Source of the DNA: a virus
Reading direction: 5' to 3' (one strand)
Length of the DNA: 33,071 nucleotides
Virus record (IMG/VR): IMGVR_UViG_3300044846_002275
Span: 1 to 33,071 of that record
Shown here: positions 12,893 to 32,962 of the stretch, in pieces
How positions within the stretch are numbered: position 1 is the first letter of the stretch
Layout: the number at the start of each line of letters is the position of its first letter
Notes under the pieces: generated by a model
The model's database searches: none
What the model was told of the DNA's origin: nothing
Seen by the model: only the letters and a program-made list of their open reading frames with translations
Position numbers and translations under genes: made by a program

Positions 12893-12917
12893 CTGTACGC
12901 CCTAGAGAGAATACAAT
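12889..12917 (+). promoter_or_regulatory. Sigma70-like promoter (TTGACT-N17-TACAAT)
   Basis: TTGACT at 12889-12894 and TACAAT at 12912-12917 have exactly 17 bases between them, five of six matches in each box. The -35 overlaps the Rz stop codon. This is the best promoter in the window and would start transcription just before the 120-aa gene at 12937. Confidence 0.65.
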
Positions 12918-12936
12918 TTGTAAAACCGGAGAAGCC

Positions 12937-13299: not shown

Positions 13300-13311
13300 C
13301 GGGATTGCCAG

Positions 13312-16605: not shown

Positions 16606-17283
16606 ATGTCTCGTGTAGCTAAATCCGTTAAAGCGCACCAATCGTTCCGAGGCGGTCTCAACGACCTGTCGAAGAACCCCTACATTCAAGCCCTTGGCAG
16701 CAGCTGCTGCGAACCTGCGGCAGCGGTGGATCAAGATCGTTTGAACCCCACTATTAACCCTGAGAATGCGTTAATCCACACCCGCCCATTCGGCAACCGT
16801 GACTACTGGCAGTTTGGTGAGTTCGCCGATTCAGAACGTGCACGTATTGTGCAACATATCAATACCCACAAGGTAGGCGCACAACTGGAGATTCTGGTCG
16901 TTCCTACTTTCTCTTTGCTCTACAGCGTACAAGCGGTTGTATTCGCCGAAGAAATTGGGTTGAAGTTCAAGGTCAAAACCCGCAACGGCACAAAACTGCC
17001 AAGTGGGCAACTGATTAAAGTGGCGGAGAAAGACGGCGGTAGTAGCTGCGGCGAAGTAGAGCGTACCCAGTCCGTAGGAGACCTGAACGACATCGGCTCC
17101 TTAGACGGTGCGACTCGCGTTCACACGCTGGCGGTGTCTGATATCGGCGGAGAGTTTGCGCTCGAAGCCGACGTGCTGATCTTGGAAGTTACATCCATGC
17201 CATCTATCGGTGTGGTAGGTAACTTTGACCTACGCGTCCACACTAACTACATTGCGCCAGGTCGTTCCGAAGCGGCGATGTAA
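16606..17283 (+). CDS. Capsid accessory/decoration protein candidate, 225 aa
   Basis: This gene comes 52 bases after the capsid gene, beyond the GAAA-loop hairpin, with AGGAG upstream of ATG 16606. The first 45 residues form a basic N-terminal arm with a SSCC pair. The rest is a beta-rich domain (RARIVQHINTHKVGAQLEIL, then a strand-rich part ending VVGNFDLRVHTNYIAPG). A decoration or cement protein is the natural guess for a mid-size protein between capsid and terminator, but no known family motif is visible. It is the last gene before the terminator at 17304, so capsid genes form a closed transcription unit. Confidence 0.6.
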   Translation: MSRVAKSVKAHQSFRGGLNDLSKNPYIQALGSSCCEPAAAVDQDRLNPTINPENALIHTRPFGNRDYWQFGEFADSERARIVQHINTHKVGAQLEILVVPTFSLLYSVQAVVFAEEIGLKFKVKTRNGTKLPSGQLIKVAEKDGGSSCGEVERTQSVGDLNDIGSLDGATRVHTLAVSDIGGEFALEADVLILEVTSMPSIGVVGNFDLRVHTNYIAPGRSEAAM

Positions 17284-17303
17284 CATAGCGATTTAGCCCG
17301 TCA

Positions 17304-17334
17304 GGAAAGGGCGCTCATTTGCGCCTTTTCTTTT
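17304..17334 (+). terminator. Rho-independent terminator after the capsid genes
   Basis: GGAAAGGGCGC (17304-17314) pairs with GCGCCTTTTCT (17321-17331) around the loop TCATTT, including two G-U pairs, and runs into TTT at 17332-17334. Stem, short loop and T-rich end are as expected of an intrinsic terminator. Confidence 0.85.
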
Positions 17335-17344
17335 GACGCTTGCG

Positions 17345-17373
17345 TTGTAACTTTATGCGACGGGGTGTACACT
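17345..17373 (+). promoter_or_regulatory. Candidate promoter (TTGTAA-N17-TACACT) with repeated GTGTAC
   Basis: TTGTAA at 17345-17350 and TACACT at 17368-17373 have 17-base spacing, four of six matches each. GTGTAC occurs at 17365-17370 and again at 17379-17384, overlapping the -10 and probable start. It follows the terminator and precedes the tail operon, so a restart of transcription is expected here. Confidence 0.45.
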
Positions 17374-17418
17374 AGATCGTGTACAGACCACACCCCTTAA
17401 CCTACCGAAGGATTTATC

Positions 17419-17664
17419 ATGTCAGCACAATTTCCTTATATCGTCTCCCGTATTAACGGGATCAAAATTCATTTACAGCCAGGGCACAGAGGCATTATGC
17501 ACCGCTTCGACACCCAGGATAACAAGCCGCTCATCCGCGAGGTTTCATCCTACGGGCACAAAGATACCGACGCACCTCTGATTCTTGAAGGCACGCCAGA
17601 GCCAGGAGAAACCCCTCGCACGTCACGCCGTGGTTCAGCGCCAGCCGCACCTGCAGCACTGTAA
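17419..17664 (+). CDS. Hypothetical protein, 81 aa
   Basis: This is the first gene of the tail operon, with GAAGGA upstream. The N-terminal 60 residues look like a small beta domain (PYIVSRINGIKIHLQPGHRG..). The C-terminal 20 residues are a disordered Arg/Ser/Pro/Ala tail (RTSRRGSAPAAPAAL). The stop is three bases from the next start. It contains no cysteine, unlike its neighbours. A head-completion or adaptor accessory is possible but not supported by a motif. Confidence 0.6.
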   Translation: MSAQFPYIVSRINGIKIHLQPGHRGIMHRFDTQDNKPLIREVSSYGHKDTDAPLILEGTPEPGETPRTSRRGSAPAAPAAL

Positions 17665-17667
17665 GAT

Positions 17668-18591
17668 ATGACGACCGCACGCGGCTGGACACCTACGCTT
17701 AGATACAGCCCCCTGAACCACATCATCGTGGACTGGGGGATTAACGGACAACCGTTCAGTATGTGCGGTATGCCCGAGCGAAATTGCGAGGCGCCCAGCC
17801 CAGTGCCGTCTGAGGCAAGTTGTACCGACCTGCCTATTACGGAAGGCGTGGATACATACGATTGGTACAGGTGGATACCTGAGATCATAGTAGGGTTAAG
17901 CAACACGTCAGATGACATGGCAGCGTCTTATGCCAGACGTGCAGCGCGAGAGTTTGCGGCGAAAGGTCGCGTACTAAAACGCCAGATTGCAGTACGTCTG
18001 CAGCAAGGTGTATTCCGCTATCCGATGGAAGCCTTTGACGAAGAGCAGATTCAAGGCGTCATGTTCATTGACAGCGCCCTAGGCTCGTGTTCCTGCTCAG
18101 GTACACCACAAACGAATTTATTCAGATCATCCTCGGGGCTAAGTTTAGACTCCGCCCGTGGGGTAAACATTGGTGCGGTGCAGTTTAACGTATCCAGGCA
18201 AGAGCTAGTTATCAGTCCGCTGCAAGGTTGTTGCGGCGCGCATGTTGGTAACGGCGGTCCTGAATACCTGCTCGTCACCGTCTGGTCTGCCCCCACCGAA
18301 GACTCCTGCAAACATGACGCTTATCTATATGAGCAATATCGTCGAGAGATCACAGTCGGTGCGAGGGCAGACTTCATAAGCGAAGCACACGCTATTGGCG
18401 TGTACAAGACCACAAGAGGCTACGCCAATTTTAGAGGCGATCAGATGCTCATGCAGCAGGCAAGCGTAGCTCGAAAAGAATTTATGTCCCTGATACGCAA
18501 GGCGAGGGTTGAGGCGGAATTGGAAGGGTTTCAGGAGATCGGCAACAGCCGCCCATCGGGCAGTCTGTTCGGTCGAGGGTGCGGAGGCTAG
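17668..18591 (+). CDS. Probable head-tail connector protein, 307 aa
   Basis: The middle section (MAASYARRAAREFAAKGRVLKRQIAVRLQQG) and the C-terminal section (VTVWSAPTEDSCKHDAYLYE, then a GARADF helix and FMSLIRKARVEAELEGF) follow the pattern I associate with tail-tubular-A or gatekeeper-type connector proteins of short-tailed phages: an N-terminal helix pair, a beta core, then a Trp-Ser-Ala-Pro strand and a final helical bundle. It is much longer than T7 gp11 and has nine cysteines, including GSCSCSG and GCCG. It would sit under the portal. Confidence is moderate because the match is by pattern, not alignment. Confidence 0.6.
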   Translation: MTTARGWTPTLRYSPLNHIIVDWGINGQPFSMCGMPERNCEAPSPVPSEASCTDLPITEGVDTYDWYRWIPEIIVGLSNTSDDMAASYARRAAREFAAKGRVLKRQIAVRLQQGVFRYPMEAFDEEQIQGVMFIDSALGSCSCSGTPQTNLFRSSSGLSLDSARGVNIGAVQFNVSRQELVISPLQGCCGAHVGNGGPEYLLVTVWSAPTEDSCKHDAYLYEQYRREITVGARADFISEAHAIGVYKTTRGYANFRGDQMLMQQASVARKEFMSLIRKARVEAELEGFQEIGNSRPSGSLFGRGCGG

Positions 18592-18593
18592 CC

Positions 18594-19283
18594 ATGCGGA
18601 TATACGATTTTCTATTTTCTATCGCCGGCGCACTAGGAGACGCACGGCAGAACACCCCGTTTCGCAGGCACACGCTGAAAGACTTGGCGATGTTCTACTC
18701 CGAAGCGCTTTGTTACGTGAAGACGCACAGACCGGATTTGTTTACCGACTACGTTGTCATGCGGCTACAGACAGGACGAGACCAAGACGCACGTTGTTGT
18801 GGTTGCGATAACGTCATGGGCGTGCACGCGCAAGTAGATAAAGACGGCAATACCGTTAAGCACATGGACGCCACGGGAACCCCAACGTCTAACACGTCAC
18901 GGTGGTATCGCACCCCCTGCCGTGAATCGCAGGCAAACGTTAGCGGCACTATCCTTACCAACTATACGATCGACCCGGGCATGAACGGGAATTTCACAGT
19001 GACACCTCCTGTCCCTCCTGGTGAGGACGTGTGGGTCAAGCTCAAGTGCGTCAAGTCCCCCGAGAGTATTTCCGAGGCAGACGTCCTGATGGGCAAGACT
19101 ACAGGAGACTGTAAATTCCTACCTGCGATTCGTAGCTACATTATGTACAGGGCGTTGCAAGGAAACCGTCACGCAGTGGGTGCGACACAAGAATCGCAGA
19201 ACGAAATTAACAACGTCAAAGCGTACCTAGGTATTCAGTACAAGATGGAAATAGAACAGGAAAAAGCTAATGGCTTGCAATAA
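18594..19283 (+). CDS. Head-tail adaptor, DUF6682-like, 229 aa
   Basis: The start is ATG 18594 with GGAGG at 18583-18587; the GTG at 18579 lacks this spacing. The N-terminal 55 residues are a helical domain (RRHTLKDLAMFYSEAL). The C-terminal half reads NGNFTVTPPVPPGEDVWVKL then KCVKSPESIS and a long helical end with SYIMYRALQ. That is the beta-strand-then-helix pattern I recall for DUF6682-type phage adaptor proteins. The CCGC cluster near residue 68 is an addition. It would form the second ring between portal and nozzle. Its last 14 bases overlap the next gene. Confidence 0.65.
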   Translation: MRIYDFLFSIAGALGDARQNTPFRRHTLKDLAMFYSEALCYVKTHRPDLFTDYVVMRLQTGRDQDARCCGCDNVMGVHAQVDKDGNTVKHMDATGTPTSNTSRWYRTPCRESQANVSGTILTNYTIDPGMNGNFTVTPPVPPGEDVWVKLKCVKSPESISEADVLMGKTTGDCKFLPAIRSYIMYRALQGNRHAVGATQESQNEINNVKAYLGIQYKMEIEQEKANGLQ

Positions 19284-20118
19284 ACCTCTAGGGGATTGCA
19301 CAAACGTTTCGCCCTGCGGCGCAAGCAGCGGGTGCGGGTGTTCAGACCCTACACCTGAACCTATCCTCCCCAGATGTCAGGACGCAGTTCTGGCGGCAGG
19401 CACTTACGAAAACGCCACGATAGTAGTAAACGCCAACGGGTGTATTGTTTTGGTGGAGAGCGGAGAGCCGCCCGTGTATACGCCAGATGATTGCTGCGGC
19501 GGTACGTCAAGCGGAGGCGGCACGCAGGGCGTGAAAGGCGACGATGGTGAACCAGGCGACGCGGCTTCGATAGACGTTGAACCCTCTATCGAAGTCAATA
19601 GCGGCAACTACTGGTCGGTGGAAAACGTCGGCACTTCCTCTGCGGCAATCCTCCGGTTTCGTTCGCCGCCCTCTACCGCTGGTGGCGGTGGCAGTACAAC
19701 AGGTATAACGGGTACAGTTGCAGGGTTAAGAGTATCAAATGGAGCAGTGCAGGCGCTGCCCTCCGCACTGGTCACGGCGGTTACAGCCGTGCCTACAGGG
19801 GAGCACGCATCTAAAATCACCATGACCTATGCGCCGCCGGATACAGCGCACCCCGATGCCGTCATGGTGACACTCGGACTTGATCTGTTCCATGATAGCC
19901 TTGTGCAGTATGTAGATGCAAAGCATCAAGAGCAGGACAACGCCTTAGCAGCTTTACGTGATACGGTAGCCACGCAGCAGAATTCGATCACCGCTCTTGA
20001 GCAAAAGGTATCTACGCTACAAACGTCCAATACAGAAATGGAGGCGGACATCGCCAAACTAAGGGCAGATGTGGACCGCTTGATGGAAATGTTCCCTACT
20101 GACCCAGGTGGACCGTAA
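19270..20118 (+). CDS. Collagen-like, coiled-coil head or tail fibre, 282 aa
   Basis: The first 36 residues hold six cysteines (3, 10, 16, 22, 24, 36), followed by a CC pair (residues 73-74). Then a short collagen-like run of Gly-x-y triplets (GTQGVKGDDGEPGDA) occurs near residue 84, a beta domain follows to about 205, and the C-terminus is a roughly 60-residue coiled coil (for example ALEQKVSTLQTSN and IAKLRADVDRLMEMF). This is the architecture of a trimeric fibre, anchored at the Cys-rich end. It is placed between adaptor and nozzle genes. It may be a head-side fibre or a short tail appendage. Confidence 0.65.
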   Translation: MACNKPLGDCTNVSPCGASSGCGCSDPTPEPILPRCQDAVLAAGTYENATIVVNANGCIVLVESGEPPVYTPDDCCGGTSSGGGTQGVKGDDGEPGDAASIDVEPSIEVNSGNYWSVENVGTSSAAILRFRSPPSTAGGGGSTTGITGTVAGLRVSNGAVQALPSALVTAVTAVPTGEHASKITMTYAPPDTAHPDAVMVTLGLDLFHDSLVQYVDAKHQEQDNALAALRDTVATQQNSITALEQKVSTLQTSNTEMEADIAKLRADVDRLMEMFPTDPGGP

Positions 20119-21740
20119 TGTCGAGCCGCGCGGTAGTCACCTCTGTATTTAGCGGCAGCACGCCACGACGTGCGGAATACCTTCACAAGGCTAACTCTGC
20201 TGCAAGGGCGGTTGATTGCCGCCTATGGCACGGCTCATTAGAATCGTGGCGAGAGCCTCGTAAAATCCGTGACGTTGGCGCAAATGCCAAGAGCGTGTAT
20301 CAGGCGTTTAATTGCTGCTGGCTAGAGTCTACTAAGTGCGCGCACTTTGCCGAAGGGTCAGTAGAGCAACGGCACGTATTTGCCACGCAGTATAACGAGT
20401 ACGAATACCCCGTGCGCATTGTGTTCGATAGCGAATGCAAGCCTACGGTATACAGGCTAGGGTTGCCTTTCCCTGTCTACGCCCCAACGGCTACGGGCGT
20501 AGCCACAACGGGAAAGGGGGCGGCGCCACGTCAATACCTGTACCAATTCAAAGACAGCTTCGGAAACCTTTCATCGCCATCGCCTGTTAGTAAAGACATT
20601 ACTGTGCAGGAAGGCGCAGCGGTTCAAGTATCCGGCTGGGCTATCCCTGATGGCGGTTGGGATATTCAGTCAATCCTAATATACCGTAGTGTGGCAGGGT
20701 ATGAGTCCTCTATCAAGGAGGATAAGAACGAAGTGGACGTGGGCTGGATGCGGGTAGACGAAATACCTGCGTCCCGCACATCCTACGTAGACACCAAGTT
20801 TGACATCGATCTATTGGAGTCGCTCAAGGAGGACGTAGTAGAACCGCCTCCTGCTAACTTGCAGGGGCTGGTCGAAATATCGAGCATGAACTGCCTTGCT
20901 GGATTTGTCGGGCGCACGTTGTACTTTACCGAGAACAACAATTACCACAACTGGATGTTCCAGCTTCAGCTTGACGATACGGTCAGGGCGATTGTTGAAA
21001 GCAACAATTTAATCTATGTAGCTACGGAGGGGTCACCCTATGTAGTGGAGGCGGCGGCCTCATGCAAAGACGCTGGGTGTAGACAAGCTATCCGTATGCC
21101 TGAAGGATTGCCCTTAGTCGGTAACGGCTATAGGAGCATGGTCGCCGTGCCGTCGGGCGCTGTGTACCCGTCACATCAGGGGCTGATTTATATTCAAGGC
21201 AAGCACGCACCGGTGGTGCTGACGTCCCGCCACTATGCGCCAGATGACTGGCAAGCGTTGCACCCTGACACGGCTAAGGTTCGGTATCACCAAGCCAGCC
21301 TGTTCGTGTTCTGCCGCAACGGCGGTTTTAACATCCAGATTAAAGATGGCGCAAGTACAGGCACGGACTTAGATCACCACACGGAATTGTCGTTGACGCC
21401 AGATGAAGTATTCACCAGTCGGTCAGGACGTTTGTTCTTGCGTTTCGGTTCGGGGGTATATGAGTGGGATCGAGGCACGGCTAAAATGCCTCACTACTAC
21501 GAAGCCGGTTCTGTGGTGACAGGCGTGCCGTTTAACTTCGGTGCGTTGCAGGTTTTAATGTCCCCAGGCGAGGAGAATATCCAGCTGACGGTAGACGGCG
21601 AAGAAGTATTGAACGAAACTATATACACTAATGACTTATTCGCCCTGCCCATGTGGGAGGGGCAGTCGTATAAATGGGCGCTAACCGGCACTGCAACCGT
21701 CCACCAGGTTAGCCTTGCGCCCTCAGCCAAGGAACTATAA
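20118..21740 (+). CDS. Tail nozzle-like protein, 540 aa
   Basis: The start overlaps the preceding TAA (TAATG). The protein is beta-rich throughout, with repeated short strands of the kind found in propeller- or nozzle-forming tail proteins. A segment YPSHQGLIYIQGKHAPVVL followed by APDDWQALHPDTAK and a RSGRLFLRFGSGVYEWD stretch is a pattern I associate with the tail proteins next to adaptors in many podoviruses. It would form the short tail tube, the equivalent of T7 gp12. Cysteines are present, including NCCW near residue 66. Position directly after the adaptors and before the core genes supports the role. Confidence 0.7.
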   Translation: MSSRAVVTSVFSGSTPRRAEYLHKANSAARAVDCRLWHGSLESWREPRKIRDVGANAKSVYQAFNCCWLESTKCAHFAEGSVEQRHVFATQYNEYEYPVRIVFDSECKPTVYRLGLPFPVYAPTATGVATTGKGAAPRQYLYQFKDSFGNLSSPSPVSKDITVQEGAAVQVSGWAIPDGGWDIQSILIYRSVAGYESSIKEDKNEVDVGWMRVDEIPASRTSYVDTKFDIDLLESLKEDVVEPPPANLQGLVEISSMNCLAGFVGRTLYFTENNNYHNWMFQLQLDDTVRAIVESNNLIYVATEGSPYVVEAAASCKDAGCRQAIRMPEGLPLVGNGYRSMVAVPSGAVYPSHQGLIYIQGKHAPVVLTSRHYAPDDWQALHPDTAKVRYHQASLFVFCRNGGFNIQIKDGASTGTDLDHHTELSLTPDEVFTSRSGRLFLRFGSGVYEWDRGTAKMPHYYEAGSVVTGVPFNFGALQVLMSPGEENIQLTVDGEEVLNETIYTNDLFALPMWEGQSYKWALTGTATVHQVSLAPSAKEL

Positions 21741-22129
21741 TGCCACGGATTGTACCAATCATCCCTCCCAACAATGAAGCAGCGGCAAAGGTCGAATTAG
21801 ACAAGATCGTCGCCGCTGCCAAGGCGCTAGACATCCCATTGGAAATGCAAGGATTTGTCGCCAACTGGCTCTCAGACAATACGCGTGTGTTCCTTGCTAC
21901 AGAAGGCGATACGCCAGTAGGGTTTGGTGTACTCGTGTTCGGGCGCCGGTACTACGATAACGATATGTCAGCGTCTGTATTGATAGCAGAGGGTCTTGCC
22001 CGCAAGGAGATGCTGGAGTTTATGGCGGACAGCAGCAAAATGCTAGGCGCCACTATGATGTTCTACGAAGCCCGAGAGGGTGATACGCTGGGCGGTTCGC
22101 CTCGTAACATGTTGGCGCTTGAGCTGTAA
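21740..22129 (+). CDS. GNAT-like protein, candidate gp13 analogue, 129 aa
   Basis: The segment RVFLATEGDTPVGFGVLVFG resembles strands 3 and 4 of a GNAT acetyltransferase, and the later KEMLEFMADSSKMLGATMMF resembles its last helix and strand. The usual acetyl-CoA loop (Arg/Gln-x-x-Gly-x-Gly/Ala) is not visible, so enzymatic activity is doubtful. T7 gp13, an internal virion protein at the same place in its operon, also has a GNAT-like fold. An assembly role is therefore more likely than acetylation. The gene is joined to both neighbours by TAATG overlaps and the protein has no cysteine. Confidence 0.55.
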   Translation: MPRIVPIIPPNNEAAAKVELDKIVAAAKALDIPLEMQGFVANWLSDNTRVFLATEGDTPVGFGVLVFGRRYYDNDMSASVLIAEGLARKEMLEFMADSSKMLGATMMFYEAREGDTLGGSPRNMLALEL

Positions 22130-22938
22130 TGAGCACCACCAAAATAAACTGTATCGACAACATAGCGTACCAAGACGCCGCTACTAAGCAGGCTAACGCT
22201 ATCAAGGCGGAGGCTGTCGCACGCACGGCGGTACAGGTTGGGCTTCTGCTGTGGCAGAGGTATCGTGACGGGCTTATCGCAGACTTGCGGCAGGAGCTAT
22301 CTAACCGTCGGATGCAGATGGCAGAAGCGGTATTAGATCATGCCAAAAAAGCCTGGGAGAAAGAGGCTTCCTTCGTACAGGAGGTGATGGATCAACCCGC
22401 CTTTGCGGTGGACTATAGCCGTATGGCCGCAGTTGGGCAGACCGTTGAGAAGGAATGGAAGTTTACAGACAACGCCCTAATCGCAGCAGCCGAAAAGGTT
22501 GGCTTGCCGATCACTCAAAGTGCGGACGCTAGGACGGGGCGCGGCATGGCGACGGCGAAGGTAGACCTAATTGCGCACACTATGCGCACGGCAGAAGCGC
22601 GTGCCATAGCCTTGAACGACCGCAGGTATTCCCGCCAACACGCGGTCTTAGCCTTGGGTCGGGGTCTGCTAAGGGAAGCCGCGCAGATGGGGCAGCTTAG
22701 CGCAAACGGCACAGTAGTGCGCGCCGCTTTAATTGATACAATTAACTCGGGCATGAAATTGTGGGGATACGAAAGCCGTCGATGGGCGCCCGGAGGCAAT
22801 TGGGCGACTGGCGGTCAAGGCGCACCGTCTGTCGTACCGCAAGGTTCTAGTATGTATGAAGTGACAAATGCCACTGGCGCCACGTCCACTATCATAGCCA
22901 CGGATGCGCTAGGTAAAACATTGACCGAAGGTAATTGA
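22129..22938 (+). CDS. Helical internal virion protein candidate, 269 aa
   Basis: This protein is almost wholly helical and Ala-rich. Near residues 160-223 it has DRRYSRQHAVLALGRGLLREA, then ANG, then KLWGYESRRWAP. The same pattern occurs in the next gene, so these are tandem paralogs. The C-terminal 45 residues are disordered and Gly/Thr/Ser-rich. Size and order (after the GNAT-like protein, before the larger core proteins) fit the T7 gp14 slot, a core protein that forms the outer-membrane part of the ejection channel. That comparison is by position and helicity only. Confidence 0.6.
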   Translation: MSTTKINCIDNIAYQDAATKQANAIKAEAVARTAVQVGLLLWQRYRDGLIADLRQELSNRRMQMAEAVLDHAKKAWEKEASFVQEVMDQPAFAVDYSRMAAVGQTVEKEWKFTDNALIAAAEKVGLPITQSADARTGRGMATAKVDLIAHTMRTAEARAIALNDRRYSRQHAVLALGRGLLREAAQMGQLSANGTVVRAALIDTINSGMKLWGYESRRWAPGGNWATGGQGAPSVVPQGSSMYEVTNATGATSTIIATDALGKTLTEGN

Positions 22939-22939
22939 A

Positions 22940-24058
22940 ATGGGCACTTGCGTCACAGCGGAAGGTTATAAAATTGCGGAGGGGATTCGCCAATCGGCAG
23001 TGTCCTTTGCGGCTTCGCTGCAACAATCTGTAGCGGTTGCCCAGTTTGCGCTGAGTGCGGTTGACGCAGTAAACAATTTCAAAAAGCTGTCGTCTATTTC
23101 CAGTCGCGGTATAGCGATAGAAGAACAACAGCAAGACCGTTTGAAGAATGTATTCTGGCCAAGGGAAGATCAATTCCTGGCGGAGTTCACTACCCCTACG
23201 GCGGTAGAAAGCCAAAGCGTGCTAGCCAAAAGATACGCCGGTCGTATGTGGGCACCCTACGCTAACGTATACGCCAAGGAGCTTAAGAAGCTAGAGTGTA
23301 GCAAGGCTAGGTATTGCGGCAATGCCTACCTGCGTGCCGTGCAAGAGGTGATGGTGGCGAGGGGGACCGCCCGCGCCAACTTCCTCATGGTGGCGGACAA
23401 GATCGCCCAGGCGGAAATCGAAGCCTTTAAAGATCGGGACTTTACGCGCCGCAAAGACGCCATTGCGTTGTACCGTGGGTTGATCGGGGAAGCGTCAAGC
23501 CTGATGCAGGCGGCGGCAAACGGCTTAGGGGCGGCAGGGCAAGAGGCGGCTAACTTGGCGTCCAACGCGTTGAAAACTTTTGCTTACGCTGATGAACGCC
23601 GTCGGGCGCCTGATCCTTACTTCCACGCGCAGACCGCACAAGACGCCATGGAGAACAGCGCCGGTAGTGCGGACGGTCGCACAATAACGTCTACTGATAT
23701 CGCAGACGCAGGGGGTGGAGGGTCAGCGCTAGAGCAAGCCGAGGCAGGGAACAGTACTACAATACCCGGCTACGAGGCAAATAGGGTATCGACTAGCAGT
23801 GTAGTCAACGCAGGCGATACACTAGATCGGGCAAGAGGCGGCATACAGAACATCGAGCTCACAATCCCTGGCATGGAGTACGATGTTAAAGGGGGGAGTG
23901 GCGTGGTGCGCACCGAAACGCTTAAGACTACAATCAAACTTGATATCGAGAAATGGCCGCTAGTCAACGTTGCAGGGTACACGCCGTCAGAAGAACAGAT
24001 TGCGCCGGCGGAGCTGGAGTATCCGCAAGCGGACATAAACGAAACGTTTAAAAAGTAA
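22940..24058 (+). CDS. Helical internal virion protein candidate, 372 aa (paralog)
   Basis: The gene starts one base after the previous stop. The central part (DRDFTRRKDAIALYRGLIGE, ANG, then KTFAYADERRRAP) matches the previous protein position by position, while the N-terminus is different and the C-terminal 150 residues are an added, low-complexity to beta-rich extension. The N-terminal 55 residues include an Ala/Val/Ser-rich helix (around SFAASLQQSVAVAQFALSAV) that may be amphipathic. It would be a second core or ejection subunit. Having two related proteins may allow a mixed ring. Confidence 0.6.
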   Translation: MGTCVTAEGYKIAEGIRQSAVSFAASLQQSVAVAQFALSAVDAVNNFKKLSSISSRGIAIEEQQQDRLKNVFWPREDQFLAEFTTPTAVESQSVLAKRYAGRMWAPYANVYAKELKKLECSKARYCGNAYLRAVQEVMVARGTARANFLMVADKIAQAEIEAFKDRDFTRRKDAIALYRGLIGEASSLMQAAANGLGAAGQEAANLASNALKTFAYADERRRAPDPYFHAQTAQDAMENSAGSADGRTITSTDIADAGGGGSALEQAEAGNSTTIPGYEANRVSTSSVVNAGDTLDRARGGIQNIELTIPGMEYDVKGGSGVVRTETLKTTIKLDIEKWPLVNVAGYTPSEEQIAPAELEYPQADINETFKK

Positions 24059-24067
24059 GGACACGAT

Positions 24068-25129
24068 ATGGCTGGCATTGACTTGATGGCGTTCGCTGAA
24101 GGTGAAAACCTAGCAAACGAACGCAATTGGAAAGATACGTTTAACGATATCCGCGCTCGCACGGATGAAGAGAACCTGAAGCAAAACACGGCTAAGTTTG
24201 ACCTGAACTATCCGGTTGCGTCAGAGATGGCCAACAACGATTACGGCCGCTTAGGTGCGGATCGTCAAGTAGGGGAAGCGCAAGCTGGGTGGATGCGCGA
24301 GCTATCAAACCTCGCACCAGAAGACCAACCGACGTTCTTGGCGGGCAAAATCCAGAACTATATGCGCACCCTGCCTGAAGGTTCGCCATTAGCCGTGCAT
24401 ACGATGAACCGTTTAAACGAGATGGGGCAGCAGCAAGCGGCCGCCTATCTTAAAGCCGGTAATATGGAAGCCGCGCAAACCATCCTGCGGGCATTGCCTG
24501 GCGTGCCGCAAGCAGCCGCCAGCCAGATGACGGATATCGAAAAGTGGAGTAACCCCCTGACCGCTTTTGACGTCAACAACGTCATGGACGCAGGCGGCAC
24601 ACCTATGGGCAACGGGCGTGTACGTATCGGCAATACCGTAATGACCGGTCCTGAGTTTGCGAACATGATGGTGAACCGCGCTAAGGAAAGGCTGTACAAT
24701 TCAAACCCCTACATGCAGGCTATTAACGACAAGGCTAAAGCCGAAGCCCTTGCCTCGCAGTCTATGGCGCTCAGGCTAGGCGGAGGGGGTAACGCCGCCA
24801 ATGTCGCATCCTCCAACGCACTCGCTGCGGCGCTACGTGAAAGGGGCGTTGACGTTTTCGTGGATCAAAGAACGGGTCAAGTTGTCGAGCTTCCCGCTAT
24901 GCCAAAGGACCGCAGGGATTTGCTGAACAACCCCTCAACGCCTAGCGTGTTCTTGCCGTCGCAATACGGCACGTCATTGTCGCCGCAGTCTAGCGTTATG
25001 ACAGGGGGAGGAGCTACGCCTAGCACGCCTCCGAATTGGCTATCGAACGTTCCCCCAGAAAACCCTCCACCGGCCGCTGTTACACCGTACAATTCAAACT
25101 GGCTATCTAACATTCGCCCTTTATTATGA
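24068..25129 (+). CDS. Internal virion protein candidate, 353 aa, no cysteine
   Basis: The protein is Asn/Gln/Ala/Met-rich and mostly helical for the first 280 residues, followed by a Pro/Ser-rich tail in which NWLSN occurs twice (PPNWLSNVPPENPPP and NSNWLSNIRPLL). It contains no cysteine. In gene order it falls where T7 has gp15, the core protein that spans the periplasm, but it is much shorter. The final ATGA couples it to the 142-aa gene. No enzyme or membrane motif is visible. Confidence 0.55.
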   Translation: MAGIDLMAFAEGENLANERNWKDTFNDIRARTDEENLKQNTAKFDLNYPVASEMANNDYGRLGADRQVGEAQAGWMRELSNLAPEDQPTFLAGKIQNYMRTLPEGSPLAVHTMNRLNEMGQQQAAAYLKAGNMEAAQTILRALPGVPQAAASQMTDIEKWSNPLTAFDVNNVMDAGGTPMGNGRVRIGNTVMTGPEFANMMVNRAKERLYNSNPYMQAINDKAKAEALASQSMALRLGGGGNAANVASSNALAAALRERGVDVFVDQRTGQVVELPAMPKDRRDLLNNPSTPSVFLPSQYGTSLSPQSSVMTGGGATPSTPPNWLSNVPPENPPPAAVTPYNSNWLSNIRPLL

Positions 25130-25554
25130 ACATACTCCCTGACCAACCGATACCCCGCCCTGTAGCAGCCGGTGTGCCTGCCGCGCCGCCACGGGAGCTA
25201 TCGCCGGCAGACACTGTGAAAGCCTTAGCGGCGGCCAGAGCGGAAGTAGACGCCGGTTTGCCGCCAGGTACGGTGTTGCAAAATAGTACTGACGCTCAAC
25301 CGCCTAGCCAAGACCCCCGCGCGTGGCTTAAAATGCTACAGCAGAGTAACGGCGTACAAGTATCACCAACCGTTAACGGCGGGGGCGACTGGTCGAGCGC
25401 TAAAGTGTTCGAGAACGTCAAGACCGCAGCGCAAAAATCCCAAGACGAACTAATGTCAAGGATGTTTGGTAACGGGAAGAACCCTGCCCTGAGTGATACT
25501 TCGGTGCTACCATTGGCGGTAGACCGATACCTCGATAAAACCCTCGACGGCTAA
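25126..25554 (+). CDS. Hypothetical protein, 142 aa, probable core accessory
   Basis: The start overlaps the previous stop by four bases (ATGA at 25126). The N-terminal 55 residues are Pro/Ala-rich and disordered, the centre has a helix-forming RAWLKMLQQSN segment, and the C-terminal 60 residues look like two helices (VFENVKTAAQKSQDELMSRM and VLPLAVDRYLDKTL). It has no cysteine. The stop codon lies in an 8-bp hairpin at 25546-25568. It is probably ejected or structural along with the giant protein that follows. No family is recognised. Confidence 0.55.
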   Translation: MNILPDQPIPRPVAAGVPAAPPRELSPADTVKALAAARAEVDAGLPPGTVLQNSTDAQPPSQDPRAWLKMLQQSNGVQVSPTVNGGGDWSSAKVFENVKTAAQKSQDELMSRMFGNGKNPALSDTSVLPLAVDRYLDKTLDG

Positions 25555-25579: not shown

Positions 25580-28500
25580 ATGATGGCTAGTGATCTCTAC
25601 AACCCTGACGCTATCTACAAAGCGCTTAACGAAAAATCCGCTATTGACAGTGGGGTAAACGAACTGCCCAACTTCATGTCCTACTTAGAGGACTTGAACG
25701 CCAAGCACGACGACCCCATGATGAAGCTGATCGAAGCGGAGACCAAGGCCGCTAAGTCACGAGTAGGTCGGGGCGGAGGCGGAGGTGGGTACGGCAGAGG
25801 CGGCGGGATTAAGATCGACACTAGCTTTGCACGTTCGGCGGCCGCAGCAGACAGAGCCGCGGCAACCGCACTCAGGAGAGATGCGGACGCGTTGTACTCT
25901 GACCAGCTATCTAACGCTACACAATCAGAAGGCGAACCTGGCGCACGTATCGCCAATCCTGCTATCGCAAAAGTTCGCCCTGAAATTGACGTCACGAAAA
26001 AATGGGAAGACATTGTTAAGTCGGAGAGCTTCGAGCAACTGCCTTACGCTCAGCAACGTGAACAAGCGCAGTTGTGGATCGAGAGTCGCCTAGAAGAAGA
26101 TCGCAGACGAGTTGAGGCAGCAACCGGCGGGAAGGTTTCCAAAGAAGGGTTAATGCAAACCCGTGCGGCCACCACAAATAACGTTATGAAAATGCTTGGT
26201 GGCGCGCCGGAAAAGAATAGCACGTTAGGTATCTCAGCCTTTGACGGGTACTGGGATAACTTTCGCTATAGTTCTAAACGAACCGATCTCGCCGACGCTT
26301 ATATAAACGCCAAGACGGAAGAAGATCGCGCCCGTATCCGTGACGAACAATTCAAGTTGCGAGACGAATACGAGAAAGGGTTAAGCCCCTTCAACAAAGA
26401 CCTGATGAAGCAGGCCGCCTACCGCAAGCGGATCGTTGAGGAACAAAACCTTAAAGAGCGGGGGGATGCCACGCTTACACCGACGCAAGAAATTGCATTG
26501 GCGGCGAAGGAAATGGCCGCGTCCCCTGGGCTTCAGATGATGGGCAGCGCACCGGCTATGGTGGAGTCTATCGCTAAAACAAACCTCGCACGGTTCGGAG
26601 TTTTAGGGGCAGGGGCGTTAGCCGGTCCGGCAGGCGTTGCCGTTGCTGCTCCTGCTAGCCAAGCGGCAGCCATTGCTACAGGTACGGCAGTGGGCGCAAG
26701 GCAATCGCAAGAGGAAATGGTAGGGGCGATGTTGGACGAGTTTCGCACGATGAAGCGAGAGGACTTGGACAAGAGCGATAAGTTCAGGGAATTGCTAGAG
26801 TTCCACGGCGGCGACGAAAACCGCGCACGTTATGCGTTAGCCGACATGGCGATTAAGAACGCCACCCCTTGGGTTCAAGGCATCGGCGCGGCAGGCGGTG
26901 CGTTAACCGGTGCGTCGATGGGTGCGGCAGCTTTTGCAAAACTCCCAGGCGTTAGTGCGGCAGTAACTAAAGGGCTAGGTTCCGTCGGTATTAACAAAAC
27001 CGCGTCATCTGCGGCGCTCGGTAAGCTGACGAATACGCTTGCAGAAAAATACGTGGCGCCTTCGATACTTAAGTCAGGGCTGGCGCAAACAGGTAAGCAA
27101 ATTGGGATCGAAGCCGGCAAAGAATTCGGCGAAGAGTTTGGACTACAGACTGCGGCAAACATAAGTATGCAGGGCGAAGGCTTAGACAAAGGCACATTTG
27201 AGGGCGCGTATGGTGCAGGTACTCAAGGCGCTTTGCAAGGCGGAGGTTTGGCGGTAGGCGCTAAAGGTATCAGCAAAGTAGCGGGTAAAGCCCTCGGTCC
27301 CGTGATTGATAACGGGGACACCGTAGTTGCGCCTAGTGCAAAAGGCGGTTTCGAGCGTGTTCGCTCAGGTAAAAAAGCAGAGCTGTCTAACGTGGCGGTA
27401 GACCCTGATACGTACCTGATGCGCTTACGAGACGTCGATGCGACGAATGATCCTAACGCCGCCAGTATAGTAGGTTCCGCCAACCACCACCTTATCTCAA
27501 ACACGGCTGTGGCGTCGGGGTTCTCGCCAGACGTGGGTAATGCTTTAGCTGCTAGCGTCAACGCCCTTATGGCAGGGTCTGCGTATGACGGCAGTGCTAT
27601 CCAGTTACCGATGACGCAGCCTAACGGCCAGCGGACTAACGTATCCCTGTTAATGGACAACAATGGGTATCTTAACGTTGCAGACCCTGCAACCGCCACG
27701 CCTGAAATAATGGCCACGCTGACCCAAGCCAACGGCCTTGTGGACTCGATGCGAGACGGCGTTCTGAAGTTTGCGGAAAAGACGGCTGGGTTTACGCCTT
27801 ACGGAGGTGGTCCTACCGCTACACCAGCGCCTGCACCTGTACCTACACCGGCGCCCGTGCCAGCGCCTACACCAGCGCCTGCACCTGTACCAAACGCACC
27901 AGCGCCCGTATCAAACGCACCAGCGCCCGTATCAAACGCACCAGCACCCGTATCAAACGCACCTGCACCCGCACCGGTAGACGCTACGGCTACAGCGCCC
28001 GTATCAAACGCACCTGCACCAGCACCGGTAGACGCTACGGCTACACCAGCGCCTACACCGGCGCCCGTGCCAGCGCCTGCACCTGTACCTACACCGGCGC
28101 CCGTGCCAGCGCCTACACCCGCGCCTACACCAGCGCCTGCACCCGTATCAAACGCACCAGCACCCGTATCAAACGCACCTGCACCAGCACCGGTAGACGC
28201 TACGGCTACAGCACCCGTATCAAACGCACCAGCGCCTGCACCGGTAGACGCTACGGCTACAGCGCCCGTATCAAACGCACCAGCGCCTGCACCGGTAGAC
28301 GCTACGGCTACAGCGCCCGTATCAAACGCACCAGCGCCTGCACCAGTGCCAGTACCAAACGCACCAGCGCCTACACCTGCACCACTGCCGACCCCTACCG
28401 CAACGCAAACATCCATAGACAATGGAGGCATCCCAACCGCACCACCTATTACTAAAATCTCCGACACGGGTCCGTACACCGAGGCTGTCAAGGCGCTGAA

Positions 28501-31500
28501 TGCAAAAGACCAAATGTATGTGTGGGAGCTTGAGCGTAGCTTATCGAACGTCCAGAATGCAGGGGACCGCGCCGGTGATCCGTTCTATGAGCGCATAGCG
28601 GAAATGGCGAAGCTCGTTAAGCGCACACTGTTCGTCAGTAAAGAGATTCAAAATTACTACACTAACGCGCCTTCAGAGAACCTCCCTCCCTACATGCGGT
28701 GGGCGAGAGACACTCTAGGGATAGAGATCGTGATAGGGTACAGTAACGCGCAGTGGGCTAACAGCATTAAGAACGGCGCCGACGCCTTGACGGCTTTAGC
28801 GACCGCAACCGAGAATGCAGGGCTGAACAACGTGGAGGCTGCACGCGCAGTGTTGGCACTTTACACTGCGTCTGGTATCGCTATCCCTCCTACCCTGTAC
28901 ACGACAACGGCGATTAAAAACCCTAACGGTCGTACTTTAGGAGCGAGAGGGACGTATGAAGCATACTGGATTGGCGACCAAGTGTTCGACCCTAAGGTGC
29001 GGCTATCCGGTAGCAAGGGTCGTAAGGGTAAGCGGTATATCTCTACCGCGGCAGACACTATTCCGCACGAATTTTTACACGGTTTGACCACTGCGGGGGA
29101 GCTTCGCTATAAGAATAGCTTGTCGCCCGCAGACCGTACGGACTACAACGCATTAGTAAAGCACCTGATAGGGCTACTGCCTGAAGGGGTCTACGCTAAG
29201 ACCAACGTAAATGAAATGATGGCGGAGTTATTCAATCCTCAAATTCTTTCATTTCTGTCACAAACAAAATACGACCTCTCCGCCTTCCCTTCCAATGCAC
29301 GTCGGGCAGCCGAACGGCTACTCGTACCGCCTAAAGGGAACCTACTGGAAATGGTACTTAGCCTAACGGCTAACGTGTTCCGGAAAGTGTTCGGCGTAAA
29401 CGTCACCCCCGATTCATTGCTCAATATCGTGGCAGGGGCGATAGCGCATTCAATGGCGATGGCGTCGGAGTCCATAAAGGTAGGGCCTGCCAATGCGCTC
29501 ACGCCGGGTAAACCTGTCCCTCCCCCCTACGTCGCCCCTGGTACGACTCAAGCAGGTGCGACTCAAGCAGGTACGACTCAAGCTGGTACGACTCAAGCGC
29601 CTAACCTATCCGCCACTTTGCCGACCGATTTAGCCAAAGGGGGAGGACGGTACAACTACGGGACAAAAGCGTTTACGTTGGATTTCGGAAGAGACATAGA
29701 TCGCGCGGCGTATGTGGCGCGTAATGTAAAAATTAAAAGCAAGCGCGATGCGGACTATCTTCAGTTTGTGATGGACGCAACCGGCTGGACAGAAGATCAA
29801 GTACGGGCGCACGGTGACGCAGTGGCGGCAGCTATTAAAAATGTAGCGGCTGCACGCACGGCAGGCGGGAGCATACGTGTACCTGTAGTAAACGCCTCTG
29901 TGCAAAATGTCGAAGTCGATCAAGCCGGTTCTGTGGATTTAACGTCCGAGCGTCCAACATCCGGCGATTACTCCGCAGGCGTGGCGACAGGAACCTTAGC
30001 CTCCCCCGCTACGGCTACCCGAGGTGTGGCGCAATCCCTACGTAAATCCGGTACGGTCGAACAAAAAGTTAAAGGGACGTTGCCCTTCCTTAAGCAGATG
30101 GGGGACAAGCTGATCGAGAGCTTTGCAGACCAAGCGCTGCCCATGGTGCGATGGATCGAAGGACTAAAGGTTGCCGATACGGCTAAGCAATCCCTGCTCG
30201 GGACTATGCGAACAGCGGCAAACGTGCGAGATACGGTTATTGGCATGGCGCAAAGAGATTTTGGCGGAGACGCCATGAACAAATTGATTGGCGAGATATA
30301 CGCTAAGGTGCGCAAGACCGCAGCAGGGAAAGACCTCAACACCGAGCAAGTGGTGCGGGATATAGGTTACGCTGTCACCGCCACCTACGCCAAGATTAAA
30401 AACGCACGGATGTTGCAAGAAGACCGTGACGCTCAAGCCAAGGCGCTGTCCGATCTGACGATTGCCTCCGCTTCTAACCTGTCGCCCGATGTGATCCAAG
30501 GGTTGCAAATGGCGTATGACGAAGCTACTCGCCTCGTCGCAGACCGTGAGCACGCAATCAACCAGCCGTCTACAGGGTTGCCTCACATGGGGGTTACGCC
30601 TAAAAGCGGTGGAGAGGCGTACCCTGTTGGGTTGGCAGGAGGCATGAACAACGCTGATGCGGATGCGCACATCGCAAGGGCGGCGAAACTCTACGGGCAG
30701 GCTAGCGTGGACGCCGTGGCAAGGGAGCTGTACCGCCTTAATGCGTTTCGTCTTGTCACGGATATTGAAAGCGGGCGCTCGCAGGCGGAAACTGTAGCGC
30801 TGTACTCCCCTGAGTTATCCGCATTGCGTTACGACCTAGTAGATTTTGAAGCCTTGGTGTCCGACCCTAACGCCGACCAACGTCGTATCGAAACCGCACG
30901 CGAAGCATTAGCACGCAAGATCGCCCTAACATCTAAGTACGTCCCGACGACGGGCGACTCTAACCGCCCACTGGAAGGTGACGTATTAGGCGTGGGCGTG
31001 AGCGCGCCAAACGTGGCGACGGATAAGAGGCTTAAGGGTCGGCAGTCTTTGGGCGATGACGCCGTGATGGCAACGCTTAGTGCAATGCAACGTTCGGCGG
31101 CTGCGGCAGGGTGGCAGGACTTCGGGCGCCAGATTCATCAGATATACACGGGCATGAATGACGCCCAACGTAAAGAGGCGGGAATCAAACTCATAGGCAC
31201 GTTAAACGTGATGACTCGCTTAAGCGACAACGTGGTGATATACAACAATATCGGCTACGAGGTCGGCACTTCAGGCGCAGAAATGAGGGCGTTGCGCAAG
31301 GAGAACATGGACGGTCAAAGCGTGCCAATGCGGTGGGCTCAAATGCCTACGCAATGGATGGCTTATGCCGCTACGCAGATGAACCCCACGTTCGGACCGA
31401 TTAACATGGTACGGGATACGTGGGAGAGAAGCGAATTTCTGCGCACTCGAACGCTGTACGATGCGCAAGGACGACAGGTAGATACCGATAAAGTAGCTCG

Positions 31501-32962
31501 TCGCATGATATCGCTAGCCGCCAGCGGCAAGGTGTTTAAAGACGTGGCTAGCGCCCAGTGGGGCAGAGACCAGAACGGCAAGTACGCTGTGTTGTTAAGG
31601 GAGTTTGAGCAATACGGGGGTGGAGGCGCCAGGTTCTCTAAGATGCTCACTCACGAACGTGCGAAACTGGTGGCGGATATCGACGCTTATGCGGCAAACC
31701 CTGCGCGCCCTATCGCCATGGCTCGTAAAGCCTTCCGCGCCACGGGGAAAGTGATATCGCAATGGAACACGTCGTTCGATGCAGTAGCGGCATTATCTGC
31801 ATATGCTGCCTTACGAGAAGCAGGCATGACGAAAGAGGCAGCCGCAGCGGCATCGCTTGACCTGATGGACTTCGGCAAGAAAGGCACGGCCATGCCGATA
31901 TTCCGCGCGCTGTACATGTTCGCCCAACCGGCTGTTACGGGCGGCGCAAACCTGATTAGGCAGCTAAAAACCACGAAAGGTCGTAAACGCTTTGCCGCCT
32001 ATACCGTCGCACTAGGGGCGGTGCAAATGCTGCTAGCGTCTCTCGCCGGCGATGACGAGGAATTAGGCAAGAACAAAATGGACTTGCTTGACGAGTACAC
32101 GCAAGATCGTTTTATCCCTATCCCTGTCGGACCAGGCATGATCGCCAAGTTGCCAATCGGATTCGGTATGCCGATGTTGGCGAACGTGCTGTCTAGGCAA
32201 GCGTTGGGGTTTGCACAAGGCAAGCAAGGCGCAGGGGAGGCTGTGTCTAACGTTCTTACCCGTGGCGTCATGCCGTCCGTGTCGCCGATTGAAGACTCTA
32301 AAATATCCTTCAATGAAAACGCTTTGCAGTACTTCGCTCAGACTTTCACGCCGTCCGTCCTTAAGCCTGTCACTAACGTTGTGATAAACAAAGGCGGGCT
32401 AGGGCAAGATATTATCAGCGAAAAATTCTACAAAAGGGAGGAGTACCGATCTGAGCAAGGCTCGCCGTTTACGGCTAAGGAGTACACGGAAATCGCACGT
32501 GACCTGCGCACTACCTTTGGTATCGACATGGCGCCTGAACAGGTGCGGGAAATCATGCGCGGTTACGCTCTAGGCGCTGCACGTTGGGCGCTGCAGGCGT
32601 ATGTGGACAACCCTAACCGTGAGGCGCAAGGACGTGTGACAGAGAATCCTATTACGCGCCCATTTGTGTCAGGCTACAACCCCAACGCCGTGTTGGCGGA
32701 GTTTGGCAAACTGCAAAAGGAAGGGCTGGGCATAATGCGCGAAGCGGCGGCGTCACCCGACACCCCGTTAGACGCCCGGCAGGAACAAGTACTGACGCTG
32801 TATAAGCAGTGGAAAGAACAGGAGAAGGAATTTACGGCGGAAGGCAATAGGCTGACCAAAGCCGGTGTTGCCCGAGGCGTCGACCCGTCTCGCAAGTCGC
32901 TGTCCGACCGCAAACAGCAAGCGCAAGTTCAGATCATCCGGCAATTCAATGCGCTGGAGTAA
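25580..32962 (+). CDS. Giant polyvalent internal virion protein, 2460 aa
   Basis: This occupies the last position of the operon, where T7 has its large ejected protein gp16. Regions in order: helical N-terminus with a Gly/Arg stretch (residues 61-76); two Gly/Ala-rich hydrophobic blocks (about 336-375 and 431-455) that could insert in membrane; a Pro-rich repeat linker (about 746-940); a zincin-like domain with HEFLH at 1163-1167 and a downstream NEMMAE (Glu1212 and Glu1216 as candidate third ligand); four GTTQA-type repeats (1321-1340); a helical region; and an LPD38-like region (about 1925-2160) starting NPTFGPINMVRDTW. It would be ejected ahead of the DNA. It has no cysteine at all. The start is ATG 25580; ATG 25583 is also possible. 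Confidence 0.8.
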   Translation: MMASDLYNPDAIYKALNEKSAIDSGVNELPNFMSYLEDLNAKHDDPMMKLIEAETKAAKSRVGRGGGGGGYGRGGGIKIDTSFARSAAAADRAAATALRRDADALYSDQLSNATQSEGEPGARIANPAIAKVRPEIDVTKKWEDIVKSESFEQLPYAQQREQAQLWIESRLEEDRRRVEAATGGKVSKEGLMQTRAATTNNVMKMLGGAPEKNSTLGISAFDGYWDNFRYSSKRTDLADAYINAKTEEDRARIRDEQFKLRDEYEKGLSPFNKDLMKQAAYRKRIVEEQNLKERGDATLTPTQEIALAAKEMAASPGLQMMGSAPAMVESIAKTNLARFGVLGAGALAGPAGVAVAAPASQAAAIATGTAVGARQSQEEMVGAMLDEFRTMKREDLDKSDKFRELLEFHGGDENRARYALADMAIKNATPWVQGIGAAGGALTGASMGAAAFAKLPGVSAAVTKGLGSVGINKTASSAALGKLTNTLAEKYVAPSILKSGLAQTGKQIGIEAGKEFGEEFGLQTAANISMQGEGLDKGTFEGAYGAGTQGALQGGGLAVGAKGISKVAGKALGPVIDNGDTVVAPSAKGGFERVRSGKKAELSNVAVDPDTYLMRLRDVDATNDPNAASIVGSANHHLISNTAVASGFSPDVGNALAASVNALMAGSAYDGSAIQLPMTQPNGQRTNVSLLMDNNGYLNVADPATATPEIMATLTQANGLVDSMRDGVLKFAEKTAGFTPYGGGPTATPAPAPVPTPAPVPAPTPAPAPVPNAPAPVSNAPAPVSNAPAPVSNAPAPAPVDATATAPVSNAPAPAPVDATATPAPTPAPVPAPAPVPTPAPVPAPTPAPTPAPAPVSNAPAPVSNAPAPAPVDATATAPVSNAPAPAPVDATATAPVSNAPAPAPVDATATAPVSNAPAPAPVPVPNAPAPTPAPLPTPTATQTSIDNGGIPTAPPITKISDTGPYTEAVKALNAKDQMYVWELERSLSNVQNAGDRAGDPFYERIAEMAKLVKRTLFVSKEIQNYYTNAPSENLPPYMRWARDTLGIEIVIGYSNAQWANSIKNGADALTALATATENAGLNNVEAARAVLALYTASGIAIPPTLYTTTAIKNPNGRTLGARGTYEAYWIGDQVFDPKVRLSGSKGRKGKRYISTAADTIPHEFLHGLTTAGELRYKNSLSPADRTDYNALVKHLIGLLPEGVYAKTNVNEMMAELFNPQILSFLSQTKYDLSAFPSNARRAAERLLVPPKGNLLEMVLSLTANVFRKVFGVNVTPDSLLNIVAGAIAHSMAMASESIKVGPANALTPGKPVPPPYVAPGTTQAGATQAGTTQAGTTQAPNLSATLPTDLAKGGGRYNYGTKAFTLDFGRDIDRAAYVARNVKIKSKRDADYLQFVMDATGWTEDQVRAHGDAVAAAIKNVAAARTAGGSIRVPVVNASVQNVEVDQAGSVDLTSERPTSGDYSAGVATGTLASPATATRGVAQSLRKSGTVEQKVKGTLPFLKQMGDKLIESFADQALPMVRWIEGLKVADTAKQSLLGTMRTAANVRDTVIGMAQRDFGGDAMNKLIGEIYAKVRKTAAGKDLNTEQVVRDIGYAVTATYAKIKNARMLQEDRDAQAKALSDLTIASASNLSPDVIQGLQMAYDEATRLVADREHAINQPSTGLPHMGVTPKSGGEAYPVGLAGGMNNADADAHIARAAKLYGQASVDAVARELYRLNAFRLVTDIESGRSQAETVALYSPELSALRYDLVDFEALVSDPNADQRRIETAREALARKIALTSKYVPTTGDSNRPLEGDVLGVGVSAPNVATDKRLKGRQSLGDDAVMATLSAMQRSAAAAGWQDFGRQIHQIYTGMNDAQRKEAGIKLIGTLNVMTRLSDNVVIYNNIGYEVGTSGAEMRALRKENMDGQSVPMRWAQMPTQWMAYAATQMNPTFGPINMVRDTWERSEFLRTRTLYDAQGRQVDTDKVARRMISLAASGKVFKDVASAQWGRDQNGKYAVLLREFEQYGGGGARFSKMLTHERAKLVADIDAYAANPARPIAMARKAFRATGKVISQWNTSFDAVAALSAYAALREAGMTKEAAAAASLDLMDFGKKGTAMPIFRALYMFAQPAVTGGANLIRQLKTTKGRKRFAAYTVALGAVQMLLASLAGDDEELGKNKMDLLDEYTQDRFIPIPVGPGMIAKLPIGFGMPMLANVLSRQALGFAQGKQGAGEAVSNVLTRGVMPSVSPIEDSKISFNENALQYFAQTFTPSVLKPVTNVVINKGGLGQDIISEKFYKREEYRSEQGSPFTAKEYTEIARDLRTTFGIDMAPEQVREIMRGYALGAARWALQAYVDNPNREAQGRVTENPITRPFVSGYNPNAVLAEFGKLQKEGLGIMREAAASPDTPLDARQEQVLTLYKQWKEQEKEFTAEGNRLTKAGVARGVDPSRKSLSDRKQQAQVQIIRQFNALE
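27829..28392 (+). repeat. Pro-rich coding repeats (51-bp and 21-bp units)
   Basis: A 51-bp unit encoding APVSNAPAPAPVDATAT is repeated five times, with GTAGACGC at 27977, 28028, 28193, 28244 and 28295 (51 bp apart within each cluster). A shorter 21-bp unit encoding APVSNAP, and PAP/PTP runs, fill the rest. It is a long flexible Pro/Ala linker and a likely site of length change by recombination. Confidence 0.9.
29540..29599 (+). repeat. Four tandem 15-bp coding repeats (GTTQA)
   Basis: Units at 29540, 29555, 29570 and 29585 differ by one or two bases and encode GTTQA, GATQA, GTTQA, GTTQA. They join the zincin-like part to the C-terminal half. Confidence 0.9.

Follow-up and report, generated by a model that had tools for sequence, protein, structure and literature searches.

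A giant LPD38 protein without cysteine at the end of a T7-like late gene block, and cysteine exclusion as a candidate mark of proteins ejected by short-tailed phages

Results

The window, i.e., the whole stretch of DNA that was analysed, is a complete virus record of 33,071 bases. Its late genes follow a T7-like order, namely terminase (PHROG 2), portal or head-tail adaptor (PHROG 332), a scaffold-like protein and a putative capsid protein, and this order continues with head proteins (PHROG 437 and 399), a nozzle (PHROG 511), a pair of proteins from PHROG 37635, two proteins without cysteine and a giant protein. The giant is the last gene of the late block (TerL, portal, scaffold-like, capsid-like, nozzle and internal proteins), and its placement after the nozzle gene matches the T7-like order 12-13-14-15-16, the position expected of podophage core proteins. 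A phage lysozyme is encoded by a separate gene at 11955-12464. The genes and features to which we refer are the following.

5193..6107, + strand: Cys-rich protein, 12 Cys, one Cys-Cys pair
12880..13947, + strand: two Cys-rich proteins (5 and 11 Cys, one Cys-Cys pair each), cysteines conserved
14590..15546, + strand: scaffold-like protein by position, 318 aa, 0 Cys; ejection not expected
15567..16553, + strand: putative major capsid protein by position only, 328 aa, 7 Cys
16606..20118, + strand: head and head-tail proteins (starting at 16606, 17668, 18579 and 19270), one Cys-Cys pair each
20118..21740, + strand: tail nozzle-like protein (PHROG 511), 540 aa, 9 Cys including one Cys-Cys pair
21740..22129, + strand: protein of 129 aa at the gene-13 position, 0 Cys; linked by synteny only to the N-acetyltransferase of BcepMigl and JC1
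22129..22938, + strand: candidate internal protein (PHROG 37635), 269 aa, gene-14 position; single conserved Cys8
22940..24058, + strand: candidate internal protein, 372 aa, with PHROG 37635 in common with the gene at 22129; Cys4, Cys120 and Cys126 kept in four of four relatives
24068..25129, + strand: protein of 353 aa at the gene-15 position, 0 Cys; homologues of 332 and 432 aa likewise 0 Cys
25126..25554, + strand: predicted core or ejection component, 142 aa, 0 Cys; homologues of 277 and 287 aa likewise 0 Cys
25580..32962, + strand: giant LPD38 "polyvalent" protein (Pfam, PHROG), 2460 aa, ATG start, 0 Cys, gene-16 position
26585..26692, + strand: hydrophobic stretch in the N-terminal part of the giant, residues 336-371 (Kyte-Doolittle, 19-residue windows)
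27819..28384, + strand: Pro/Ala-rich tandem repeats (PAPVSNA / PAPVDATAT units)
28577..29509, + strand: zincin-like (metallopeptidase-like) segment, HEFLHG at residue 1163
29618..29890, + strand: short conserved module, residues 1347-1437 (sequence match)
30017..32959, + strand: all-helical C-terminal core, residues 1480-2460 (AF2 pLDDT 87.4, pTM 0.85)
32075..32608, + strand: LPD38 domain, residues 2166-2343 (Pfam)

Neither a family match, nor the comparison with JC1, nor the PDB supports the identity of the putative capsid protein, and a family search with the 21740..22129 protein returned no match. The nozzle-like protein would, judging by homology, remain in the particle.

The giant is a previously undescribed LPD38 "polyvalent" protein, predicted to be an internal virion protein that is ejected. 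It matches Pfam LPD38 (PF18857) at 2.7e-17, with 63.9 bits relative to a curated cut-off of 27, and PHROG 14770 at 2.1e-28. Besides LPD38 it carries a conserved HExxH...E segment, in which the two histidines and the glutamate of HExxH and two further glutamates about 50 residues after HEFLHG (E213 and E217 of A4) are invariant in the window's giant and three relatives. No family library names this segment, and because its AF2 model is weak (pLDDT 69) and matched no PDB structure, motif conservation is the sole basis for a possible peptidase role. The module at residues 1347-1437 is 52% identical to part of a giant of otherwise unrelated layout, and the model of the C-terminal core has 67 matches in BFVD at E <= 0.001 and none in the PDB. 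The Pro/Ala tandem repeats show several nested periods.

The initial annotation had reported that the giant and the two proteins preceding it contain no cysteine and that ten other proteins of the window have an adjacent Cys-Cys pair, and our recount agrees on every point. ORF 25580-32962 has no cysteine in 2460 residues, ORFs 24068-25129 and 25126-25554 have none in 353 and 142, and exactly ten proteins, starting at 232, 5193, 12880, 13312, 15567, 16606, 17668, 18579, 19270 and 20118, have one pair each. The remaining proteins of the window hold 119 cysteines in 7708 residues (1.54%). At this rate the probability of finding none in 2460 residues is 2e-17, and it is 2e-7 at the rate of 0.62% that characterises the largest neighbouring ORFs of relatives. 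The giant gene has no TGY triplet in frame 0, 92 in frame 1 and 111 in frame 2; since the triplet is common outside the coding frame, the absence of cysteine acts at the protein level. Avoidance of TGY in the DNA itself is rejected, out-of-frame TGY being normal in the window's giant and in LPD38 giants. Four more proteins of the window lack cysteine (857-1285, 142 aa; 14590-15546, 318 aa; 17419-17664, 81 aa; 21740-22129, 129 aa), so for small proteins a lack of cysteine has no diagnostic value by itself. When cysteines are counted per gene in related contigs, as the initial annotation had proposed, both halves of the division are conserved in three relatives: their giants (3076, 3401 and 2652 aa) each have none and their shell proteins retain cysteine.

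The ten proteins with a Cys-Cys pair compare with 2.42 expected, and none of 2000 shuffles reached ten. Relative G803 keeps 38 of 52 aligned cysteines over seven shell proteins at an overall identity of 32-50%, with the seven of the capsid-like protein all retained; the 5193..6107 protein shares 10 of its 12 cysteines with G800 at 40% identity, and in the head and head-tail proteins at 16606..20118 retention of cysteine far exceeds overall identity. The pair at residues 237-238 of the putative capsid protein is conserved in three relatives. More widely, the pairs of shell proteins are conserved in relatives at 32-74% identity, but a capsid homologue that is only 20% identical lacks the pair. 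The capsid may be an unusual one in which these pairs form disulfides or bind metal.

A homologue search with the whole giant matched only one viral contig, and an alignment of the C-terminal core used as query found 80 loci from viral contigs. The non-redundant set derived from them comprises 59 LPD38 giants with 150,008 residues (locus L026 is left out, the ORF picked there not being the giant). Cysteine amounts to 0.010% of these giants compared to 1.244% of the other ORFs at the same loci, a ratio of 0.008 or a 120-fold depletion. Every other amino acid stays within 0.55 to 1.19 times its background level, the next lowest being histidine at 0.55 (1.8-fold down). Among genes of at least 300 codons located just upstream of the giants, 50 of 72 have zero cysteine, compared to 4 of 96 elsewhere.

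The giant of phi296 (L006, 8401-16791) was considered as a cysteine-bearing example and rejected as a start-call artefact: its annotated start overlaps a terminator-like hairpin, and the likely start at Met14, which has a GGAG site, removes its only two cysteines, both of which lie upstream. The cysteine of the L163 giant was likewise judged a start-call artefact, and Cys3 of the L086 giant looks real. Among other peculiarities of the set, the frame that encodes the LPD38 protein of a Bacteroidaceae prophage (L190, genome G005) stays open for about 6660 codons. In Pasteurella phage Pmp11 (L003) the giant directly follows the portal gene with no capsid genes between them, which makes this record look like a defective or rearranged prophage; the same direct succession, here of a portal-like ORF of about 725 aa and the giant, recurs in several Pmp11-related isolate contigs (L017-L024 and L030).

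The known ejected proteins gp15 and gp16 of T7, gp7, gp16 and gp20 of P22 and the virion RNA polymerase (vRNAP) of N4 have 0 Cys each. Among T7 relatives, gp15 has none in 33,585 aa (45 distinct proteins) and gp16 has 5 in 57,512 aa (44), and gp8, gp10, gp11, gp12, gp17 and gp19 have 0.2-0.8%. In T7, P22 and N4 themselves cysteine is present in portals and nozzles and in most of the capsid and fibre proteins; the N4 capsid protein, which has none, is an exception. Mass spectrometry of JC1 virions detected the giant gp69 (51 unique peptides), gp64, gp67 and gp68 (PMC9144972), and all four have 0 Cys. From the same operon, gp63 (an acetyltransferase with 3 Cys) and gp65 (a PAPS reductase with 4) are absent from the list (PMC9144972), which is weak evidence because gp62 and gp66, both without cysteine, are also unlisted. 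Within this phage family, the giant detected by mass spectrometry is that of JC1, not that of the window.

Two classes of proteins depart from this division. Scaffolding proteins are nearly free of cysteine though not ejected (T7-like gp9 has 4 Cys in 12,056 aa and P22 gp8 has none), suggesting that a second cause may act on proteins of the head interior. Conversely, proteins of the gp14 type, which are ejected in T7, have a conserved single N-terminal cysteine, against the cysteine-free rule of gp15 and gp16. The position of this residue varies, being Cys2 in most T7 relatives (loci L211-L258) and Cys8 and Cys4 in the window's proteins. The suggestion of the initial annotation that cysteine content separates ejected from retained proteins is therefore partly supported: it holds for large proteins and fails for scaffolds and gp14-type proteins.

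Matched comparisons bear on the cause. The methylase-helicase module carried by some of the giants has no cysteine in five podophages and 39 cysteines in six plasmid homologues, one of which is 64% identical to the module of BcepMigl; the difference (Fisher, 4e-11) concerns residues that are not independent, and P values of this kind overstate independence because many of the counted residues share ancestry. The contrast indicates that the vehicle and not the enzyme sets the cysteine content.

A second comparison concerns the oxygen regime of the host. We take the hosts belonging to Bacteroidota (mostly of gut and rumen) and those of the methanogen virus MetMV, of a Methanoperedens relative and of crAss001 to be anaerobes. 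Giants from Bacteroidota have 72 Cys in 43,334 aa (0.17%) compared to 23 in 136,020 in giants of other hosts, and the giants of anaerobes are still about eight-fold below background. The RNA-polymerase-like proteins of crAss001 have 5 Cys in 6102 aa, and MetMV and the Methanoperedens relative have three cysteines in common around the zincin motif. A conserved C-x107-C-x4-C pattern flanks HELTH in the giants L005, L103 and L064, two of which have archaeal sources (methanogens or methanotrophs). The giant of Fibrimonas termitidis, presumably also an anaerobe, has 0 Cys, counter to the trend. The contrast is suggestive only, because the LPD38 clades that the tree shows to be independent number two, and even with crAss001 added this does not suffice for significance. 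Among Flavobacteriales, sought as an aerobic contrast to Bacteroidales, LPD38 is present in 1 of 399 genomes, too rarely to inform the comparison.

Discussion

We consider it probable that the giant is an internal virion protein from which cysteine has been removed by selection against disulfides in an oxidising periplasm. For the window's own giant, we infer both its location in the virion and its ejection, and likewise the periplasm as the selective agent. The giant would be stored in the phage head, ejected with or ahead of the DNA, pass the portal at least partly unfolded, and have to regain its fold in the periplasm or while crossing it. This compartment is oxidising in aerobic Gram-negative hosts and contains disulfide-forming enzymes, so that any cysteine in a chain that is still unfolded risks wrong disulfides within or between molecules, and selection would remove such residues. 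Shell and tail proteins fold in the reducing cytoplasm prior to assembly and undergo no later refolding outside the cell. They may therefore retain cysteine, and in this lineage they have conserved Cys-Cys pairs. Three comparisons of sequences, i.e., those of the enzyme module, of cargo delivered by contractile tails and of anaerobic hosts, suggest selection against periplasmic disulfides.

The same absence could arise from threading alone, where a disulfide would jam the chain in the narrow portal and tail, so that cysteine is excluded irrespective of the compartment reached afterwards. This reasoning has been published for the N4-like vRNAP (PMC3915230), and the 853-aa tape-measure protein gpH of lambda is likewise free of cysteine. 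We nevertheless regard it as unlikely: DarB of P1 (9 Cys in 2255 aa) and the virion RNA polymerase of phiKZ (5 in 1451 and 2 in 490), both thought to be delivered via contractile tails, hold 0.34-0.41% cysteine, not far from the 0.47% of DarB-type plasmid proteins, and short-tailed phages of anaerobic hosts regain cysteine though their proteins thread too. DarB is a head protein by mass spectrometry, and its translocation is "believed" to occur (PMC9024508). A slightly smaller chance still is given to storage, by which a long stay in the head in air would select for loss of cysteine and so avoid oxidation or cross-linking before infection. Storage would also cover the relaxed constraint in phages of gut anaerobes, and it fits the cysteine-free proteins of the capsid interior, including scaffolds if cross-linking in the prohead matters; however, DarB (PMC9024508) and the phiKZ polymerase reside in heads and keep their cysteines, and in short-tailed phages cysteine persists in the capsid, portal and nozzle proteins that share a particle with the cysteine-free ones. 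The cysteines of DarB and the phiKZ polymerase thus argue against either threading or storage as the sole cause. That long helical, Ala/Lys/Glu-rich or flexible proteins are poor in cysteine regardless of ejection is improbable and, as to helical composition, rejected, since, notwithstanding the cysteine-free scaffolds that are not ejected and the all-helical core of the giant, helix-prone ORFs of at least 300 aa elsewhere at the same loci have 1.09% cysteine (zero in 1 of 18), the depletion is restricted to cysteine, and one and the same methylase-helicase has cysteine on plasmids and none in podophages.

Selection against periplasmic disulfides is hence the reading that we prefer. The initial annotation had combined unfolding and threading with refolding in an oxidising periplasm; the periplasmic part of that proposal fits better, and DarB and the phiKZ polymerase speak against threading alone.

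We lean, by a narrower balance of evidence, towards a general form of this reading, in which exclusion of cysteine would be a general sequence mark of proteins that pass an oxidising periplasm when ejected by short-tailed phages, with independent origins in LPD38 giants, gp15/gp16 of T7, gp7/gp16/gp20 of P22 and N4-like RNA polymerases, with embedded enzymes scrubbed of cysteine, and with the mark absent from contractile-tail cargo and relaxed in phages of anaerobes. If this is true, zero cysteine in a late-region protein longer than about 500 aa singles out candidates for ejection where a short-tailed phage is still uncharacterised; most such proteins are currently labelled "hypothetical". 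Cysteine content would then indicate the redox conditions encountered by phage cargo in the host, and both the exposure or shielding of ejected proteins in the periplasm and the extent to which the chain unfolds en route would become testable questions. Methylases, helicases, transglycosylases and RNA polymerases that are naturally free of cysteine could also be useful scaffolds for protein engineering and delivery.

The absence of cysteine and its possible link to passage through tail and periplasm have been published for N4-like vRNAP (PMC2784036, PMC3715699, PMC3915230). A review of ejection proteins calls the periplasm "harsh oxidizing" and describes refolding of gp16 and nowhere mentions cysteine (PMC8954989), and the word is absent from the paper that defines polyvalent proteins (PMC5512222). 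Beyond N4-like vRNAP, we found no general rule on cysteine-free ejection proteins in the open-access literature, to which the search was confined, so that priority is uncertain.

Among known systems, the vRNAP of N4 (gp50) and its N4-like counterparts resemble the window's giant in their giant size and 0 Cys (3500 aa in N4), the N4 protein being packaged in the head and injected. The window's giant differs from them in having LPD38 and a zincin-like segment, and no RNA polymerase family, the hallmark of an N4-like vRNAP, is found among its Pfam, PHROGs and NCBIfam matches. The window's proteins are like gp15 and gp16 of T7 in gene order, position and 0 Cys, and the T7 proteins reach the periplasm on ejection, with gp16 refolding there (PMC8954989); the giant is nearly twice as long as gp16, its core matched no solved structure by sequence or fold, T7 gp16 included, and Pfam finds in it no N-terminal lytic transglycosylase or SLT domain of the gp16 kind. 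DarB of P1 is, like the giant, a polyvalent protein, in this case a head protein thought to enter the cell. Unlike the giant it comes from a myovirus and contains cysteine, and the methylase-SNF2 helicase dyad expected of DarB is not found by Pfam in the window's giant. The "DarB-like" proteins gp69 of BcepMigl and gp69 of JC1, both Bcep22-like phages, carry that dyad together with an N-terminal transglycosylase, and the window's giant is without either. With these two proteins, which have 0 Cys in 4658 and 4515 aa, the giant shares the LPD38 C-terminal core, the last-gene position and the T7-like core block.
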